Source: Nitrospinae bacterium CG11_big_fil_rev_8_21_14_0_20_45_15 (lineage in GTDB: Bacteria > Nitrospinota > Nitrospinia > Nitrospinales > VA-1). From it: 64,000 nt of DNA. The stretch's first letter is position 1. Every line of letters begins with the position of its first letter. The stretch lies in the NCBI GenBank assembly GCA_002787235.1, contig PCWG01000028.1, forward strand, positions 1-64,000, read 5' to 3'. The translations under genes were made by a program, and so were the position numbers. A model generated the notes under the pieces. That model had not been told where the DNA came from, ran no database searches, and worked only from the letters and a program-made list of their open reading frames with translations. Shown one piece after another: positions 35,146-42,531 of this stretch.

Positions 35146-36356
35146 GTCTGATTAAAGTTGACGAAGCACGAGAAATCATCCTGTCCAGAATCCAGTTTAT
35201 GGGAGCTGAGAAGATACCCCTCACAGAAACACTCGGAAGAGTTTTGTGCGAAGACATCATCGCGCGGCGCAACAACCCGCCCATGGACAACTCAGCGATG
35301 GATGGTTACGCTTTGATTGCAGAAGATGTCAAAACCGCAAGCCCGGAAAATCCCGTTATTTTGCAGGTCGTCGGCGAAGTCGCCGCCGGTTATACCGCGA
35401 CAGGCGAGCCTTTGAAGTCGGGTCAAGCCCTGCGCATCATGACGGGAGCCCCCATTCCGCCCGGCGCCAATGCCGTCATCATGCAGGAAGACACCGAACG
35501 CGATGGCGACCGATTGCTGGTCAAAGACATGGCAGAGGTGGACGAAAATATTCGTGAAGCCGGTGAGGATGTCAAAGTCGGTGAGTTGGTTGTTCCCAAG
35601 GGAACCGTCATTCGCCCTGCTCATATTGGCATGATGGCGACTGTGGGTCGCTCGCAAATTTTTGTCGGCCGTCGTCCGACTGTAGCCGTATTGTCCACAG
35701 GCGACGAAATCCTCGATTTGGATGACCAACCCGAAGGGCCCTGCATCTACAATAGCAACGGTTATATGCTGTCCGCGCAGATCCGTTCCGCAGGCGGCAT
35801 TCCTCATTATCTGGGCATCGCACGTGATACCGAAGAAGATTTGATGGAGAAATTTCGCTGGGCATTGCAATGCGATCTCATCGTTTCATCGGGTGGTGTT
35901 TCGGTTGGTGACTACGATCTCGTCAAAGCCAGCCTGAAAAAAATCGGGCAAGAGATGTTGTTCTGGAAGGTTGCGATGAAACCCGGCAAGCCTCTGGCGT
36001 TTGGACAAATCGGGGACACTCCGATTTTTGGACTCCCCGGTAATCCGGTATCCTCTTTCGTTTCATTCGAGCAATTTGTACGACCTTCGATTCGCAAGAT
36101 GACAGGTCGAGACGATTTGCTCAGCACATGCGTGCAGGCGAAACTCACTCATTCGGTCAGTAAAAAAGCCGGACGACAACATTTCCTGAGTGCCCGAACG
36201 GTTTGGGAAAAGGATGGCTACATCGTTACACCTGAGGGCGCGCAAGGTTCCGGCATACTGAAATCTGCCGCACAGGCCAACAGCCTCATGATTTTCCCTC
36301 TGGAAGCAACCGATCTGGCAGAAGGCGAACAAGTCACCGTTCAGCTTTTAGAATAA
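35142..36356 (+). CDS. moeA: Molybdopterin molybdenumtransferase
   Basis: A 404-residue MoeA inserting molybdate into adenylated molybdopterin. RNNPPMDNSAMDGYAL, IMTGAPIPPGANAVIMQED, VAVLSTGDEI, SSGGVSVGDYD, KVAMKPGKPLAFG and FGLPGNPVSS are all conserved, with the C-terminal domain after about residue 330. Length is typical. It overlaps the mobBA fusion by ATGA and is separated from the proteasomal ATPase by only 58 bases. Confidence 0.95.
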   Translation: MSLIKVDEAREIILSRIQFMGAEKIPLTETLGRVLCEDIIARRNNPPMDNSAMDGYALIAEDVKTASPENPVILQVVGEVAAGYTATGEPLKSGQALRIMTGAPIPPGANAVIMQEDTERDGDRLLVKDMAEVDENIREAGEDVKVGELVVPKGTVIRPAHIGMMATVGRSQIFVGRRPTVAVLSTGDEILDLDDQPEGPCIYNSNGYMLSAQIRSAGGIPHYLGIARDTEEDLMEKFRWALQCDLIVSSGGVSVGDYDLVKASLKKIGQEMLFWKVAMKPGKPLAFGQIGDTPIFGLPGNPVSSFVSFEQFVRPSIRKMTGRDDLLSTCVQAKLTHSVSKKAGRQHFLSARTVWEKDGYIVTPEGAQGSGILKSAAQANSLMIFPLEATDLAEGEQVTVQLLE

Positions 36357-36378
36357 GACGGGCTGTTCAAACACAAAC

Positions 36379-36397
36379 AAGCGCGAAGATTGCGCTT
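36379..36397 (+). other. Intercistronic hairpin between moeA and the proteasomal ATPase gene
   Basis: AAGCGC (36379-36384) pairs with GCGCTT (36392-36397) around a 7-base loop, followed by TAAAATAA. The stem is short and has no T tract, so an mRNA-processing or partial attenuation site is more likely than a full terminator. The AAGGG ribosome binding site of the next gene follows. Confidence 0.3.
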
Positions 36398-36414
36398 TAA
36401 AATAAGGGTTACCA

Positions 36415-38034
36415 ATGGGAGATCCCATTCACATTATAGAATTGATCGATCAGGTACTTGAGGAAACGGCAGATCGCCCGAACCTTCAGGAAAAAATATA
36501 CGACTTGCGCGACGCCTTGTATCAGGCTCAGCAAATCGCAGGACAATTTGAAGCGAAGATCAAAACGCTTGAAGAAGCCATCGACAAATTAAAATCACCC
36601 GCTCATCGGGTGGGTACCGTGCTGGGCAGGGGACAGGGTGAATTGTATCGCATCAATATCGGCGGTACGGAGTACCAGGCGCAAGTGGCTCCCGATGTAT
36701 TGGAAAAGGATGTTCTCGAACCCGGAGATCAGGTCGCTCTGAACGAGGGCTTCGTTGCCATTGCCAAACTGGATCAGGCGGGCAGTGGAGTGTTGTCACG
36801 CATCAGCACACGCCTTGCCGACGGTAGCTGGCTGGTCTCATCTGGCGGTACGACGGGATCGGAGACCATGGTGCAGGCACGGCCGGGACTCGATGTTTCT
36901 GCCCTGCGTGAAGGCGATGAGGTTTTACTGGACCCGAGTCAGAAAGTGATTCTGAACCGTTTGCCGAAACGCGAATCAAAATCTTTCGTGCAGGACGATT
37001 TTGTCCAAACGGATTGGACGCAAGTGGGCGGACAGGAAAAAGTGATCGAAGAAGTTCGCAAGGTCATCGAGTATCCCATCCTGCATAAAGAGCTCATCGC
37101 CGAGATGGAATTTCAACTGCCCAAAGGTTTTCTGTTTTATGGACCTCCCGGTTGCGGCAAAACCCTTATAGGCAAAGCCATCCTCACCGAGGTTATTAAA
37201 CGCATGGGAGAAGATTCCAATCGCACACTGGAGGGTCGATTCATCCACGTCAAAGGTCCAGAAATTCTGAACATGTGGTTGGGTGAGTCCGAACGCAAAG
37301 TCCGGGAAATTTTTGCCCGGGCCCGTGACTATAAAGAAAAAGGACACGTTCCCTTCATCTTTATTGATGAAGCCGAATCGGTTCTTGGAACGCGCCAGGC
37401 ATGGCGCGGAAACAATATTTCAAATACGCTCGTGCCGATGTTTTGCGCCGAGATGGACGGCATCGAATCACTCAACGACACCGTTGTGATTTTGGCCACC
37501 AATCGGCCCGATCTCATCGACCCCGCCATTTTGCGACCGGGGAGAATCGACCGCAAAGTCAAAGTGGGTCGACCCGACCGCGAGAGTTGCAAATCGATTT
37601 TGCGCGTTTACCTCAAAGAAACACTTCCGCGAGAGTTTGCAACCTTTGATGAAATGGCGGAGCCCTTCTTGGATCAACTGTTCAAAAAAACCAGCGATCA
37701 GGAAACACTGGTCATGACTTTGAAAAGTGGCGGATTCAAAAAACTGTATTGGAAGGATTTCATCTCGGGCGCGGTCATTGAAAGTATTGTCAAGCGCGCC
37801 AAAGAGAAGGCCGTTGAGCGAGCGATTGAAGGCGAAAAACTGGTCGTGCGTGTCGATGACTTGCTGGAATCCCTGAAGACAGAATTTACAGAGAGCCAGT
37901 TGTTGCCCGCAGAATCAAATATGGAAGACTGGCTGAGACTACTCGATGTGGACCCGCGTCACGTGGCCCGTGTGCGTCGTCCGAGTGAAAGCGATCAGGC
38001 CGCACAGTCTACCCTCAACCGGTCCATCATATGA
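36415..38034 (+). CDS. Proteasomal AAA+ ATPase (ARC/Mpa)
   Basis: A 539-residue ring ATPase that would recognise tagged proteins, unfold them and feed the proteasome. Residues about 20-62 form the N-terminal coiled coil that binds Pup-like tags. Residues about 64-185 hold two OB domains. The AAA module has Walker A GPPGCGKT (243-250), Walker B FIFIDEAES (314-322) and the arginine-finger region LRPGRIDRK. Family members usually end in a short motif with a penultimate tyrosine that docks in the alpha ring; this one ends LNRSII, with no tyrosine. It overlaps dop by four bases and has AAGGG upstream of the ATG. Confidence 0.93.
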   Translation: MGDPIHIIELIDQVLEETADRPNLQEKIYDLRDALYQAQQIAGQFEAKIKTLEEAIDKLKSPAHRVGTVLGRGQGELYRINIGGTEYQAQVAPDVLEKDVLEPGDQVALNEGFVAIAKLDQAGSGVLSRISTRLADGSWLVSSGGTTGSETMVQARPGLDVSALREGDEVLLDPSQKVILNRLPKRESKSFVQDDFVQTDWTQVGGQEKVIEEVRKVIEYPILHKELIAEMEFQLPKGFLFYGPPGCGKTLIGKAILTEVIKRMGEDSNRTLEGRFIHVKGPEILNMWLGESERKVREIFARARDYKEKGHVPFIFIDEAESVLGTRQAWRGNNISNTLVPMFCAEMDGIESLNDTVVILATNRPDLIDPAILRPGRIDRKVKVGRPDRESCKSILRVYLKETLPREFATFDEMAEPFLDQLFKKTSDQETLVMTLKSGGFKKLYWKDFISGAVIESIVKRAKEKAVERAIEGEKLVVRVDDLLESLKTEFTESQLLPAESNMEDWLRLLDVDPRHVARVRRPSESDQAAQSTLNRSII

Positions 38035-39506
38035 TCGAATTGCCGCCCTTGATGGGAATTGAAACCGAATATGGGATCATTCGCGAATCGGCGCAACATT
38101 CCGATCCCGTCGAAGAATCGATGGAATTGCTGAAACGTTGCGATGCGCCGAGTGTGTACGGGGCCTGGTCGTACGGTCGAGAAAACAGTCACCTCGATCT
38201 GCGTGGATTCCGCGTCGGCTCATTGGCGCAGGATGAAGAAGAAGACGCGTTCTGCGCAGAAGACCGCAAACGACCCTACAGTTATCTGGAAATGAAATGC
38301 GATCGGGTTCTGACCAATGGAGCCCGGTTTTATAACGACCACACCCATCCCGAATACAGCTCTCCCGAATGCAACGATCTGTTTCAGCTCGTCGCCCATG
38401 ATGTTGCGGGAGAGCATATCGTGGCCCGTGCCGCGAAATTGCGCAATCAGGATCTCGGGGGCTCGCATGTGCAGTTGTTCAAAAATAACACCGACTACAT
38501 CGGTCACAGTTATGGAACGCATGACAACTATCTCATTGCACGCGAAATTCCATTCGATGACATCGTCACCGCTCTGGTTCCCTTTCTAGTGACCCGACAA
38601 TTGTATGCAGGCGCAGGGAAGGTGGGTTATGAAGGCGGCGGTGTGCCGTTCCAGGGTTTGCAGTTATCGCAACGAGCGGATTTTGTAGAAACCGTATTGA
38701 GTATCGAAACCATGACTCAGCGGCCGATCATCAATACCCGTGACGAGCCGCACGCAAGCAGTAAGGACTACCGGAGATTGCATTTGATACTCGGCGACGC
38801 CAACATGTCGGCCTACGCTACTGCTCTTAAAGTCGGGACGACCCGGTTGGCGCTCGGTCTCATCGCCAGAGGTTCCGCACCCCTTTTCGAATTGGAAAAT
38901 CCCGTTGCTGACGTGCCCCGAATTTCACGCGATCCGCATGTACCGTTGAAGCAAACAAACGGGAAGACAATCAGCGCACTCGATATACAGTTTGCATATC
39001 TTGAGCAAGCGCAGAAAATCTGGTTGGGACACAATGAAGAATGCAACTGGGTGCTCAGCGAATGGAACCGGACTTTGAACGATTTTCAGCAAGATCCTGA
39101 AAAACTTTCCGACCGCATCGACTGGGCCATCAAGCAGAAACTGTATCGACAGTTCATGGAGGCTGAGAATATAGGCTGGGAAGACCCCTGGCTACAAAGC
39201 CTCGATCTGGAGTATCATAATCTGGATCCCGAACGCGGACTCTACAGAGCTCTGGAACAAGAAGGCCAGGTGCTGGAATTGTTCAAAGGGAGTGAAATCG
39301 AGTCGGCAATCGAAACACCACCCGTGGGAACCCGAGCCTGGATTCGTGGGCAGATGGTTAAATATTATGGCAACGACATACAATCCATCCACTGGACGGG
39401 GATCAAACTGAAGGACGGCAACGTTCTGGACTTGACCTCCGTGATCAAATCTGCTGAAGTAGATACGTGGATCAACGATAACAAGGAGCAATGGCAATGG
39501 AAATGA
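38031..39506 (+). CDS. dop: Dop-type deamidase/depupylase for the UBact tag
   Basis: A 491-residue protein of the Dop/PafA carboxylate-amine ligase fold. MGIETEYGI holds the catalytic glutamates. GARFYNDHTHPEYSSPEC matches Dop; PafA reads more like DDxxHLEYASPEC. RDEPHASSKDYRRLHLILGDANMS is also Dop-like. Dop converts the C-terminal Gln of a Pup-like protein to Glu and removes the tag from substrates. This agrees with the Gln-ending UBact encoded next. An insertion after GIETEYGI (about residues 17-50) corresponds to the Dop loop region. No second paralogue (PafA) is in the window. Confidence 0.9.
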   Translation: MIELPPLMGIETEYGIIRESAQHSDPVEESMELLKRCDAPSVYGAWSYGRENSHLDLRGFRVGSLAQDEEEDAFCAEDRKRPYSYLEMKCDRVLTNGARFYNDHTHPEYSSPECNDLFQLVAHDVAGEHIVARAAKLRNQDLGGSHVQLFKNNTDYIGHSYGTHDNYLIAREIPFDDIVTALVPFLVTRQLYAGAGKVGYEGGGVPFQGLQLSQRADFVETVLSIETMTQRPIINTRDEPHASSKDYRRLHLILGDANMSAYATALKVGTTRLALGLIARGSAPLFELENPVADVPRISRDPHVPLKQTNGKTISALDIQFAYLEQAQKIWLGHNEECNWVLSEWNRTLNDFQQDPEKLSDRIDWAIKQKLYRQFMEAENIGWEDPWLQSLDLEYHNLDPERGLYRALEQEGQVLELFKGSEIESAIETPPVGTRAWIRGQMVKYYGNDIQSIHWTGIKLKDGNVLDLTSVIKSAEVDTWINDNKEQWQWK

Positions 39507-39673
39507 ACGATCCCCTGCGTCGGGAAGAACGTGACGCACCGAAACCAGATAAATCCGATAGCGGACCGAAGTCACCCGATTCGGCTCGACCCGGACGCGA
39601 CAATATCCTCAAGCGCATGAAGCGTGTGGATCCAAAACAATCAGAAAACTACAAACAGCGCACCGGCCAATGA
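39497..39673 (+). CDS. UBact, a Pup-like ubiquitin-like protein modifier
   Basis: A 58-residue, highly charged and probably disordered protein. The C-terminal half (RPGRDNILKRMKRVDPKQ, then SENYKQRTGQ) carries the features of the UBact family described from several Gram-negative phyla, including the terminal R-T/S-G-E/Q. Ending in Gln means it must be deamidated by Dop before its glutamate can be linked to substrate lysines. The ATG at 39497 is eight bases after AAGGAG (39483-39488) and is preferred over the ATG at 39491, only two bases away, or 39503. It overlaps the dop stop and the proteasome beta start, placing it in one translational unit with them. Confidence 0.88.
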   Translation: MEMNDPLRREERDAPKPDKSDSGPKSPDSARPGRDNILKRMKRVDPKQSENYKQRTGQ

Positions 39674-40464
39674 TGGAACGAAAAGAAATGCCTCGCCCCT
39701 CCTGTGATTTTCTGGGATTACTGGAGCAGTCCGGCTATCGCTGGCGCGATAGAATACAAACCCACGCAGGTTCTCAGACTGTATTGACACAGGGAACCAC
39801 CGTCATGGCATTTCATTTTGATGGAGGCATCCTCATGGCAGGTGATCGCCGGGCAACAGCCGGGAACGCCATCATGTACGAACGTTGCGACAAAGTGATT
39901 CCCGTGGACGATTATTCACTCATGGCAATCGCAGGCGTGCCCGCAACGGCGTTTGAAATGGCACGCATCATGTCACATAATTTTGAATTTTTCCGACGCT
40001 CGCAATTACAATCCATGAGTGCCGAAGGCAAAGTAAGATCCCTTTCACGCCTGCTGAAAGACAACGCAGGCATGGCTTTGCAAGGTATCGGTGCTGTAAG
40101 CCCTATTTTTGCGACATACGACTTGCAAGCAAAGCGGCCCCTGATTTATTTTTACGATATATTGGGAGCCGAGTTTCAAATAAAAACACACACCGCTACC
40201 GGCTCAGGCTCTGGAATGATTCGTGGTATTTTCGAGCACGAAGACCTGTGGGGTGCGAAACCTTTGCGAGAAAGGAATCAGGACGAAGCCGCCCAGCTAG
40301 CGATCCGTCTCCTGCAAACCGCCGCACAATTCGATTCAGCTACAGGTAAAGCCAGACCCGAAGACGATATTTTCCCTACCATTGCCATAGTCTCAGAACA
40401 AGGTTACGAATTTCTGGATAGTGACCGCATACGAAAACTTTTTGAGCAGGCAATGAAGAGGTAG
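39670..40464 (+). CDS. prcB: 20S proteasome beta subunit
   Basis: A 264-residue Ntn-hydrolase. A propeptide of about 42 residues ends in QG, and T43 is the expected nucleophile after self-cleavage (GTTVMAF). MAGDRRAT supplies the active-site aspartate and ERCDKVIPV the lysine. SGSGM and RPEDD segments complete the fold. The mature protein (about 222 residues) would form the catalytic rings. Its start overlaps the UBact stop (ATGA). The alpha-subunit gene expected beside it is not found; 180 bases later an unrelated secreted protein begins. Either prcA lies elsewhere or the particle is assembled differently. Confidence 0.9.
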   Translation: MMERKEMPRPSCDFLGLLEQSGYRWRDRIQTHAGSQTVLTQGTTVMAFHFDGGILMAGDRRATAGNAIMYERCDKVIPVDDYSLMAIAGVPATAFEMARIMSHNFEFFRRSQLQSMSAEGKVRSLSRLLKDNAGMALQGIGAVSPIFATYDLQAKRPLIYFYDILGAEFQIKTHTATGSGSGMIRGIFEHEDLWGAKPLRERNQDEAAQLAIRLLQTAAQFDSATGKARPEDDIFPTIAIVSEQGYEFLDSDRIRKLFEQAMKR

Positions 40465-40644
40465 TTATCCGCATCAGAGAAAACATGCGTGAAACAGTGC
40501 AACGTGTTGCGCATTTGTTAAAGATTGTTCTAAGTTGCTTAAAATTTATCTTGATGATTCTTTGCGCCAGAAATATCGGATGGATGTTGATAAAGCCAAG
40601 TCAAAAATACTGACATTTTAAAATACATCGAATGTTGAATATAA

Positions 40645-42531
40645 ATGAAATCAAGATTTGACCCCATCGCAGAGTTCCTGAGAATAAATTTTAAATTCCT
40701 GACGCAGGTTTTCTCTGCGTACGCGATCCTGCCATTAATAGGGATTTTCTTTTTTTCTAGCTTGTCTCTTGCGCAGGAAAACGCGACGGTGGATAAGATA
40801 TCCGCTCAAATCGAATCCTTGTTCCCCTTGCTGGAAGGCTATGTGGTTTCTGTAGAAGGCGATAAACTTTTTCTGGATTTGAAGCAAGGTCAGAATATAT
40901 CCAAAGGGGATCATTTCAAATTGATTCGCTACGGTGAAGATATCATCCACCCTGTCAGTAAGGAAAAAATAGGACGCAAGGAAACCGATATGGGAGAGGT
41001 CGAAGTGATCGAGGTTCGACCCGACTTCACAATCGCCCGCGCGTTGACACCTGATACAGCGGTGCAAGTCGGCGATGGTGTTCGACTGCCATTCAAGCAA
41101 ATCACTCTTTTAGTAGCCCCGCCTCAGATCAACAGCCAAAAGAAAATTGATGCACAACAACTGCAAGCCAATCTACAGCAGAGCCTGGGAGAACGCGCCC
41201 GATTCAAGGTGCCCACGTTCGATCTGGGTTTGTGGATGCTGGAGAACGATCTTGATCTCGCAAGACTGCTCAATCCCGAAAGCCTTGCACGGTTGCAGAA
41301 AGATATTTCCGTCAACTTTATACTGGCCCCGGAAGTCAAGACGGTTAAGGGGAAAACAGTACTCGGCTATAACTTGTATTCAGCGGTTGACGGTGCCAGC
41401 AAGAAGAATGCGCGTCTGTTGGCAGAACGATTGCCGGAAGCGTCTGCAGCGGAGAATAACCGTGTCGCTTCAAACAAGCGTAGCAATAGGGAACAGCGTG
41501 ACGATGGCCCCTTTGAACTCATCACCAAACAGGAATTTAAATTTACGTTGGTAGATCTGGACGTAGGCGATGTCACGGGTGATGGTAAAAAAGAACTCAT
41601 CCTCATCAATGAAAATCGAGTGATGGTTTATCGTCTGCAAGAAGATGGAAAACTAAAGGGCATAGCCCAGTACAAGCCACGCGCAGATAATTTGGAATTT
41701 ATTTCCGTAGATGTGCTAGACCTCAATGGCAATGGCAAAGACGAGATTTTTGTTACTTGCAGGGAGGGTGATAGTCGTTTGGCATCTTTTGTTTTGGAAG
41801 TCAACGACAGACGATTTCAACCTATATGGAGCGATGTGAATAGGTACTTCCGCGTCATGCGTTCTTTTGGTGACGCTCCGGTTATGATGACACAAACTCC
41901 GGGATATCAGGATCCCTTCAACGGCCCGATAGAAACCGTTAAATTTGAAGGCGGGAAGTATCAAATCGGTCCAGCCTTAAAAATACCCGAGAAATATGGC
42001 GTGGAATTCATACTTTATGGATTCGCTCAAGGCGACTTCTCAAATAAAAAACAAGATGATACAATAACGCTTGACAAGGACTTTCATTTGAAGGTATATT
42101 CCGCGGACGGTCGTATAGTTTATAAGTCGGAGGAGTATTACGGGCAAGATCCACGTGTGATTGCTCTGGGGATTCACGAAGATGCTACCGGCCTTGTTCG
42201 CGAGGGTGAAACGGTAAAGTATAAGGGAAGAATCGGGTTGGTTCTGCATAACAAGGAACGTTTCATTGTTCTCCCCAAGAACCATATGATGGGAGGTTCC
42301 CTTTTTGACCGTTTGGTAATTGTGAATAGCAATAGCCTGGTGATCCAATCCATTGAAAGAGATGGCGTAGAAAGATATTTCGAGACCCGAAAGCAAAAAG
42401 GCTATCAGGCCTCGTATCAGATTGTTAAAGGGCAGGGGTTGGGTGATGTGGTGTATATCGGCTCTGTGGAAAAAGCCGGTCGGGGTACAGATGGAATCAG
42501 TTCAGTGGTTGTGTATAGCTGGAATAAGTGA
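40645..42531 (+). CDS. Secreted FG-GAP/VCBS-repeat protein
   Basis: A 628-residue protein with an N-terminal signal or anchor segment (hydrophobic at about 22-42, cleavage near SLA-Q). Residues about 55-150 form a beta domain resembling the FlgT C-terminal type (GYVVSVEGDKLFLDLKQGQNISKGDHFKL). Two calcium-binding FG-GAP loops follow: DVTGDGKKELIL and DLNGNGKDEIFVT at about 311-375. The rest is likely beta-propeller. A cell-envelope role is inferred. It occupies the place directly after prcB where prcA and pafA are often found in related clusters, but has no evident proteasome link. The gap before it shows no terminator. Confidence 0.7.
   Translation: MKSRFDPIAEFLRINFKFLTQVFSAYAILPLIGIFFFSSLSLAQENATVDKISAQIESLFPLLEGYVVSVEGDKLFLDLKQGQNISKGDHFKLIRYGEDIIHPVSKEKIGRKETDMGEVEVIEVRPDFTIARALTPDTAVQVGDGVRLPFKQITLLVAPPQINSQKKIDAQQLQANLQQSLGERARFKVPTFDLGLWMLENDLDLARLLNPESLARLQKDISVNFILAPEVKTVKGKTVLGYNLYSAVDGASKKNARLLAERLPEASAAENNRVASNKRSNREQRDDGPFELITKQEFKFTLVDLDVGDVTGDGKKELILINENRVMVYRLQEDGKLKGIAQYKPRADNLEFISVDVLDLNGNGKDEIFVTCREGDSRLASFVLEVNDRRFQPIWSDVNRYFRVMRSFGDAPVMMTQTPGYQDPFNGPIETVKFEGGKYQIGPALKIPEKYGVEFILYGFAQGDFSNKKQDDTITLDKDFHLKVYSADGRIVYKSEEYYGQDPRVIALGIHEDATGLVREGETVKYKGRIGLVLHNKERFIVLPKNHMMGGSLFDRLVIVNSNSLVIQSIERDGVERYFETRKQKGYQASYQIVKGQGLGDVVYIGSVEKAGRGTDGISSVVVYSWNK

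Follow-up and report, generated by a model that had tools for sequence, protein, structure and literature searches.

A UBact-proteasome gene cluster in a Nitrospinota bacterium is split into two pieces and retains all six components

The window, the whole 64,000-nucleotide stretch of DNA analysed here, carries four genes of a UBact-proteasome system, encoding a proteasomal ATPase, Dop, the UBact tag and the 20S beta subunit PrcB. The genes for the alpha subunit PrcA and the ligase PafA are absent from it, which raises the question of whether these are encoded elsewhere in the genome or whether the lineage has a reduced system, for example with beta rings docking directly to the ATPase. A preliminary description of the window had put forward both options; in the reduced system as considered here, Dop would also carry out all tag chemistry. 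A search of the open-access literature returned only passing mentions of UBact and, for Nitrospina proteasomes, a single useful paper, a Dop/PafA phylogeny (PMC7947786).

All four genes lie on the plus strand, and family models and structures agree with the identities proposed for them in the preliminary description. The first (36415..38034) encodes a 539-residue AAA ATPase of the Mpa/ARC family ending in RSII, which matched TIGR03689 with an E-value of 6e-115 in the family-model search of the window ORFs, contains AAA and proteasomal OB domains, and finds Mpa structures as its matches in the PDB. It is followed by dop (38031..39506, 491 residues), encoding a deamidase/depupylase-type enzyme that scored 433 bits with the Dop model TIGR03688 (under the cut-off of 492 of this actinobacterial model) vs 367 bits with the PafA model. 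Its best-scoring structures were likewise those of Dop and the Dop-loop is present, so the enzyme expected for a Gln-ending tag is indeed encoded here. The tag gene (39497..39673) encodes 58 residues ending in RTGQ, and scored 68.9 bits with NF033388 (cut-off 35) and above the cut-off of PF20513. An in-frame ATG further upstream (39491) would give 60 residues, but the start at 39497 is kept in most relatives and has an AAGGAG 8 nt upstream. The protein matched UBact models only and does not have the GG[E/Q] end of a Pup tag. Last comes prcB (39670..40464), encoding 264 residues (TIGR03690, E-value 2e-45), in which T43 follows a propeptide and aligns with residue 1 of the mature beta chains of bacterial PDB entries. 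The ATPase/dop and UBact/prcB pairs overlap by ATGA as had been described for the whole run, whereas dop and UBact, with the start at 39497, overlap by 10 nt. The gene 3' of prcB encodes, also as described, a secreted protein unrelated to the proteasome genes, here recognized as an FG-GAP protein.

Whole-genome searches were carried out in the window's own genome (G000), a 45-contig assembly that is 97% complete. Exactly two genes of the Pup_ligase family were found, the window Dop and a second one on contig C21, together with exactly three proteasome-fold genes, encoding PrcB, PrcA and HslV. The second ligase-family gene (G000:C21:12971-14398, 475 residues) and the alpha subunit gene (G000:C21:14616-15383, 255 residues) are intact ORFs adjoining each other, while the four-gene block is located on contig C15. 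The preliminary description was thus correct in that prcA and pafA are missing from the window, and of its two options the genes being encoded elsewhere is the one borne out; as it had itself argued, finding both intact reduces the case to a split operon.

The ligase-family protein on C21 matched PF03136 with an E-value of 3.5e-130. By score alone, its assignment as PafA rather than Dop is marginal, with 336 bits for the PafA model vs 324 for the Dop model (both under cut-off), and 242 bits for Dop vs 239 bits for PafA among structures. The assignment therefore rests on three other features: the protein is without the Dop-loop of ~40 residues, a feature that distinguishes Dop (PMC7947786); it is 77.5% identical to the gene product at the pafA position of the operon in a genome of the same genus (G001); and the genome encodes a separate Dop. 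On these sequence features the protein is assigned as PafA. The HLEY-type motif that had been guessed for PafA reads LDMGHLEYASPEC here vs NDHTHPEYSSPEC at the same place in Dop, with the aspartate conserved, and Nitrospinae homologs have been noted previously in a Dop/PafA phylogeny (PMC7947786). The alpha subunit matched TIGR03691 with an E-value of 2e-18, which is under the curated cut-off, as is the case in all 60 relatives; a profile built from ten such PrcA proteins matched the mycobacterial PrcA structures (E-value 4e-16). The prcA and pafA genes are separated by 217 bp containing a perfect 13-bp inverted repeat (TTTTGTGGAGCGT; G000:C21:14425-14492, locus L067), which may uncouple the two genes. 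The genome contains a single copy of the repeat with this spacing, and a dispersed element was ruled out on that ground.

All six components are accordingly present in G000, with the ATPase, Dop, UBact and PrcB encoded in the window and PrcA and PafA on C21. Comparison with a second species of the genus (G002) gave pN/pS values of 0.087 for the ATPase, 0.098 for both Dop and PrcB, 0.104 for PrcA (187 codons) and 0.189 for UBact (58 codons), and comparison with G001 gave 0.222 for PafA (for which only this pair was available) and 0.19–0.29 for the other genes; these values are rough, as synonymous sites are near saturation, and indicate purifying selection on both halves. The absence of prcA and pafA from the window is what speaks for a reduced system, but both genes are intact elsewhere and appear to be under selection, and the relatives carrying the system have both. 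The reduced system was rejected on the outcome of the whole-genome searches and we regard it as having next to no chance of being correct; with PrcA present, nothing supports beta rings that dock directly to the ATPase. We are instead highly confident that the UBact-proteasome system is complete and that its six-gene cluster lies in two pieces. UBact was found in 50 of the 60 relatives. It had been reasoned that loss of UBact in close relatives would argue against function, an argument that does not apply here since both same-genus genomes (G001 and G002) encode it. In a few relatives it is missing along with the rest of the system. Of these, two more distant genomes, G007 (95% complete) and G026 (90%), lack all of Dop, PafA, UBact, PrcA and PrcB and have HslV alone; other members of their genera carry the system, and the missing UBact looks like loss of the whole system.

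How the cluster came to be split can be read from the gene order in related genomes, a comparison also proposed in the preliminary description. In G001, a single contig, the order ATPase-dop-UBact-prcB-prcA-pafA forms one run (about 621830-628137), and mobA, moeA, the FG-GAP gene and a porin gene are contiguous ~720 kb away (about 1.346-1.352 Mb), with moeA directly adjoining the FG-GAP gene and no ATPase gene between them. In the window, exactly this site, between moeA and the FG-GAP gene, is occupied by the four-gene block. Judged against the G001 order, its left junction is the 58 bp separating moeA from the ATPase gene (36357..36414) and its right junction the 180 bp separating prcB from the FG-GAP gene (40465..40644), the ancestral neighbor of prcB being prcA. 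No repeats were found at these junctions (36300-36460 and 40400-40680). The other half has moved into new surroundings as well: on C21 prcA follows a histidine-kinase gene whose G001 ortholog (3.08 Mb) is distant from the UBact operon of that genome, which makes the left neighbor of prcA-pafA a new one, too. The contiguous six-gene order recurs in most deep Nitrospinota lineages and in two Nitrospirota loci (L104 and L106). In a tree built from a concatenation of the ATPase, Dop and PrcB sequences, G000 and G002 grouped with a support of 1.0 and G001 was their sister with 0.995, deeper nodes being weak. Together, the tree and the orders in G001 and the outgroups identify contiguity as the ancestral state. 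A single event split the six-gene cluster in the common ancestor of the source species and G002.

Given that G000 is a multi-contig assembly and the operon is contiguous in G001, the split could in principle be an artefact, with a chimeric contig or a misbinned C21 obscuring a truly contiguous operon. However, the separate assembly of G002 has moeA, the block and the FG-GAP gene on one 8.8-kb contig, with ~90% identity in the shared proteins, and prcA after the same histidine-kinase gene on another. Furthermore, C21 is collinear with contig C16 of G002 over more than 20 kb at 70–92% protein identity. The prcA gene of G002 runs to the contig end, and no pafA was seen in that genome. As both new junctions are common to G002, the split is no misassembly and is older than the divergence of the two species; an artefact was rejected on this basis and we consider it very improbable. 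A further reading would be an addition to, rather than a competitor of, the split of a complete system: that the fission was adaptive, placing the tag, Dop, the ATPase and the beta subunit under the moeA promoter and the ligase and alpha subunit under another, so that tagging capacity is tuned separately from the other functions. The gap between moeA and the ATPase gene is only 58 bp, no plus-strand consensus promoter or terminator was found within it, and the new neighbors differ between the two halves. Against this, the consensus scan carries little weight, as promoter matches were no commoner than in shuffled sequences, and gene order is plastic among these UBact clusters, neutral rearrangement explaining the split equally well. 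We therefore regard an adaptive role as rather unlikely.

Gene presence, intactness, location and order, as well as the polarity of the order change, are shown by the present analysis. From homology, the mechanism is likely the standard one, with deamidation by Dop, conjugation by PafA and an ATPase feeding an alpha/beta 20S core. Dop would convert the C-terminal Gln of UBact to Glu and also remove the tag, thereby reversing conjugation, and PafA would use ATP to join UBact-Glu to substrate lysines. The ATPase hexamer would then unfold tagged proteins and thread them via the alpha rings of PrcA into the beta rings of PrcB, in which propeptide cleavage is predicted to free the active-site T43. 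The same six components make up the UBact conjugation-proteasome system that is known from Nitrospinota, Nitrospirota and further Gram-negative phyla (NF033388, PF20513). The single cluster that is usual for that system, though not essential, is not found in G000: in the source species and in G002 it is split between prcB and prcA. The G001 operon consists of the same six genes, contiguous there and split here, and its five large proteins are 66–81% identical to those in G000. The Pup-proteasome system of Actinobacteria is similar in its homologous ATPase, Dop/PafA pair and alpha/beta core, and in a C-terminal Gln tag needing deamidation; in contrast to Pup, which ends in GGQ, the tag here is UBact with an RTGQ end.

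Other variants were observed among the related loci. The order dop-prcA-UBact-prcB-pafA occurs in 13 of them (L075, L077-L082, L084, L086-L089 and L108), and this placement of prcA between dop and UBact is a second, separate gene-order change among these clusters. One Nitrospinaceae clade (genus g5; L073:4659-5459, L074:8380-9180 and L083:9488-10297) has an extra, divergent prcB located between dop and prcA; its product is 47–49% identical to the window PrcB, which suggests beta rings of mixed or alternative composition. The C-terminal residue of UBact also varies, being Glu (RTGE) in a single Nitrospinia genome (L092:9479-9649) and in the Nitrospirota loci L104 and L106, and Gln in the remaining Nitrospinota loci; Dop is kept in all, including the RTGE loci.

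The C-terminus of the ATPase differs from that of its actinobacterial counterparts, which end in GQYL, the docking motif of mycobacterial Mpa (PMC8755798). The RSII end of the window protein lacks this motif, and a tail of the form R-[S/A]-[I/V/M]-I, without the penultimate tyrosine, was found in 38 Nitrospinota sequences (window positions 38020-38034 and 37 other loci). Two Nitrospirota ATPases end in RTIE. It is tentatively proposed that the ATPase uses a motif other than the mycobacterial GQYL and the eukaryotic HbYX to dock on the alpha ring, and that in this sub-lineage the alpha subunit and the ligase are no longer co-regulated with the other components, a combination we consider possible and somewhat doubtful.

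The locus is a split but complete member of an already known system, which removes the claim of a bacterial proteasome without an alpha subunit and a ligase. What it offers in its place is a well-polarized operon fission in which the encoded machine has been kept whole, with the operon still in one piece and the receiving site still unoccupied in the same-genus genome G001. In addition, the conserved ATPase tail without GQYL provides a testable lead on docking in the UBact proteasome.
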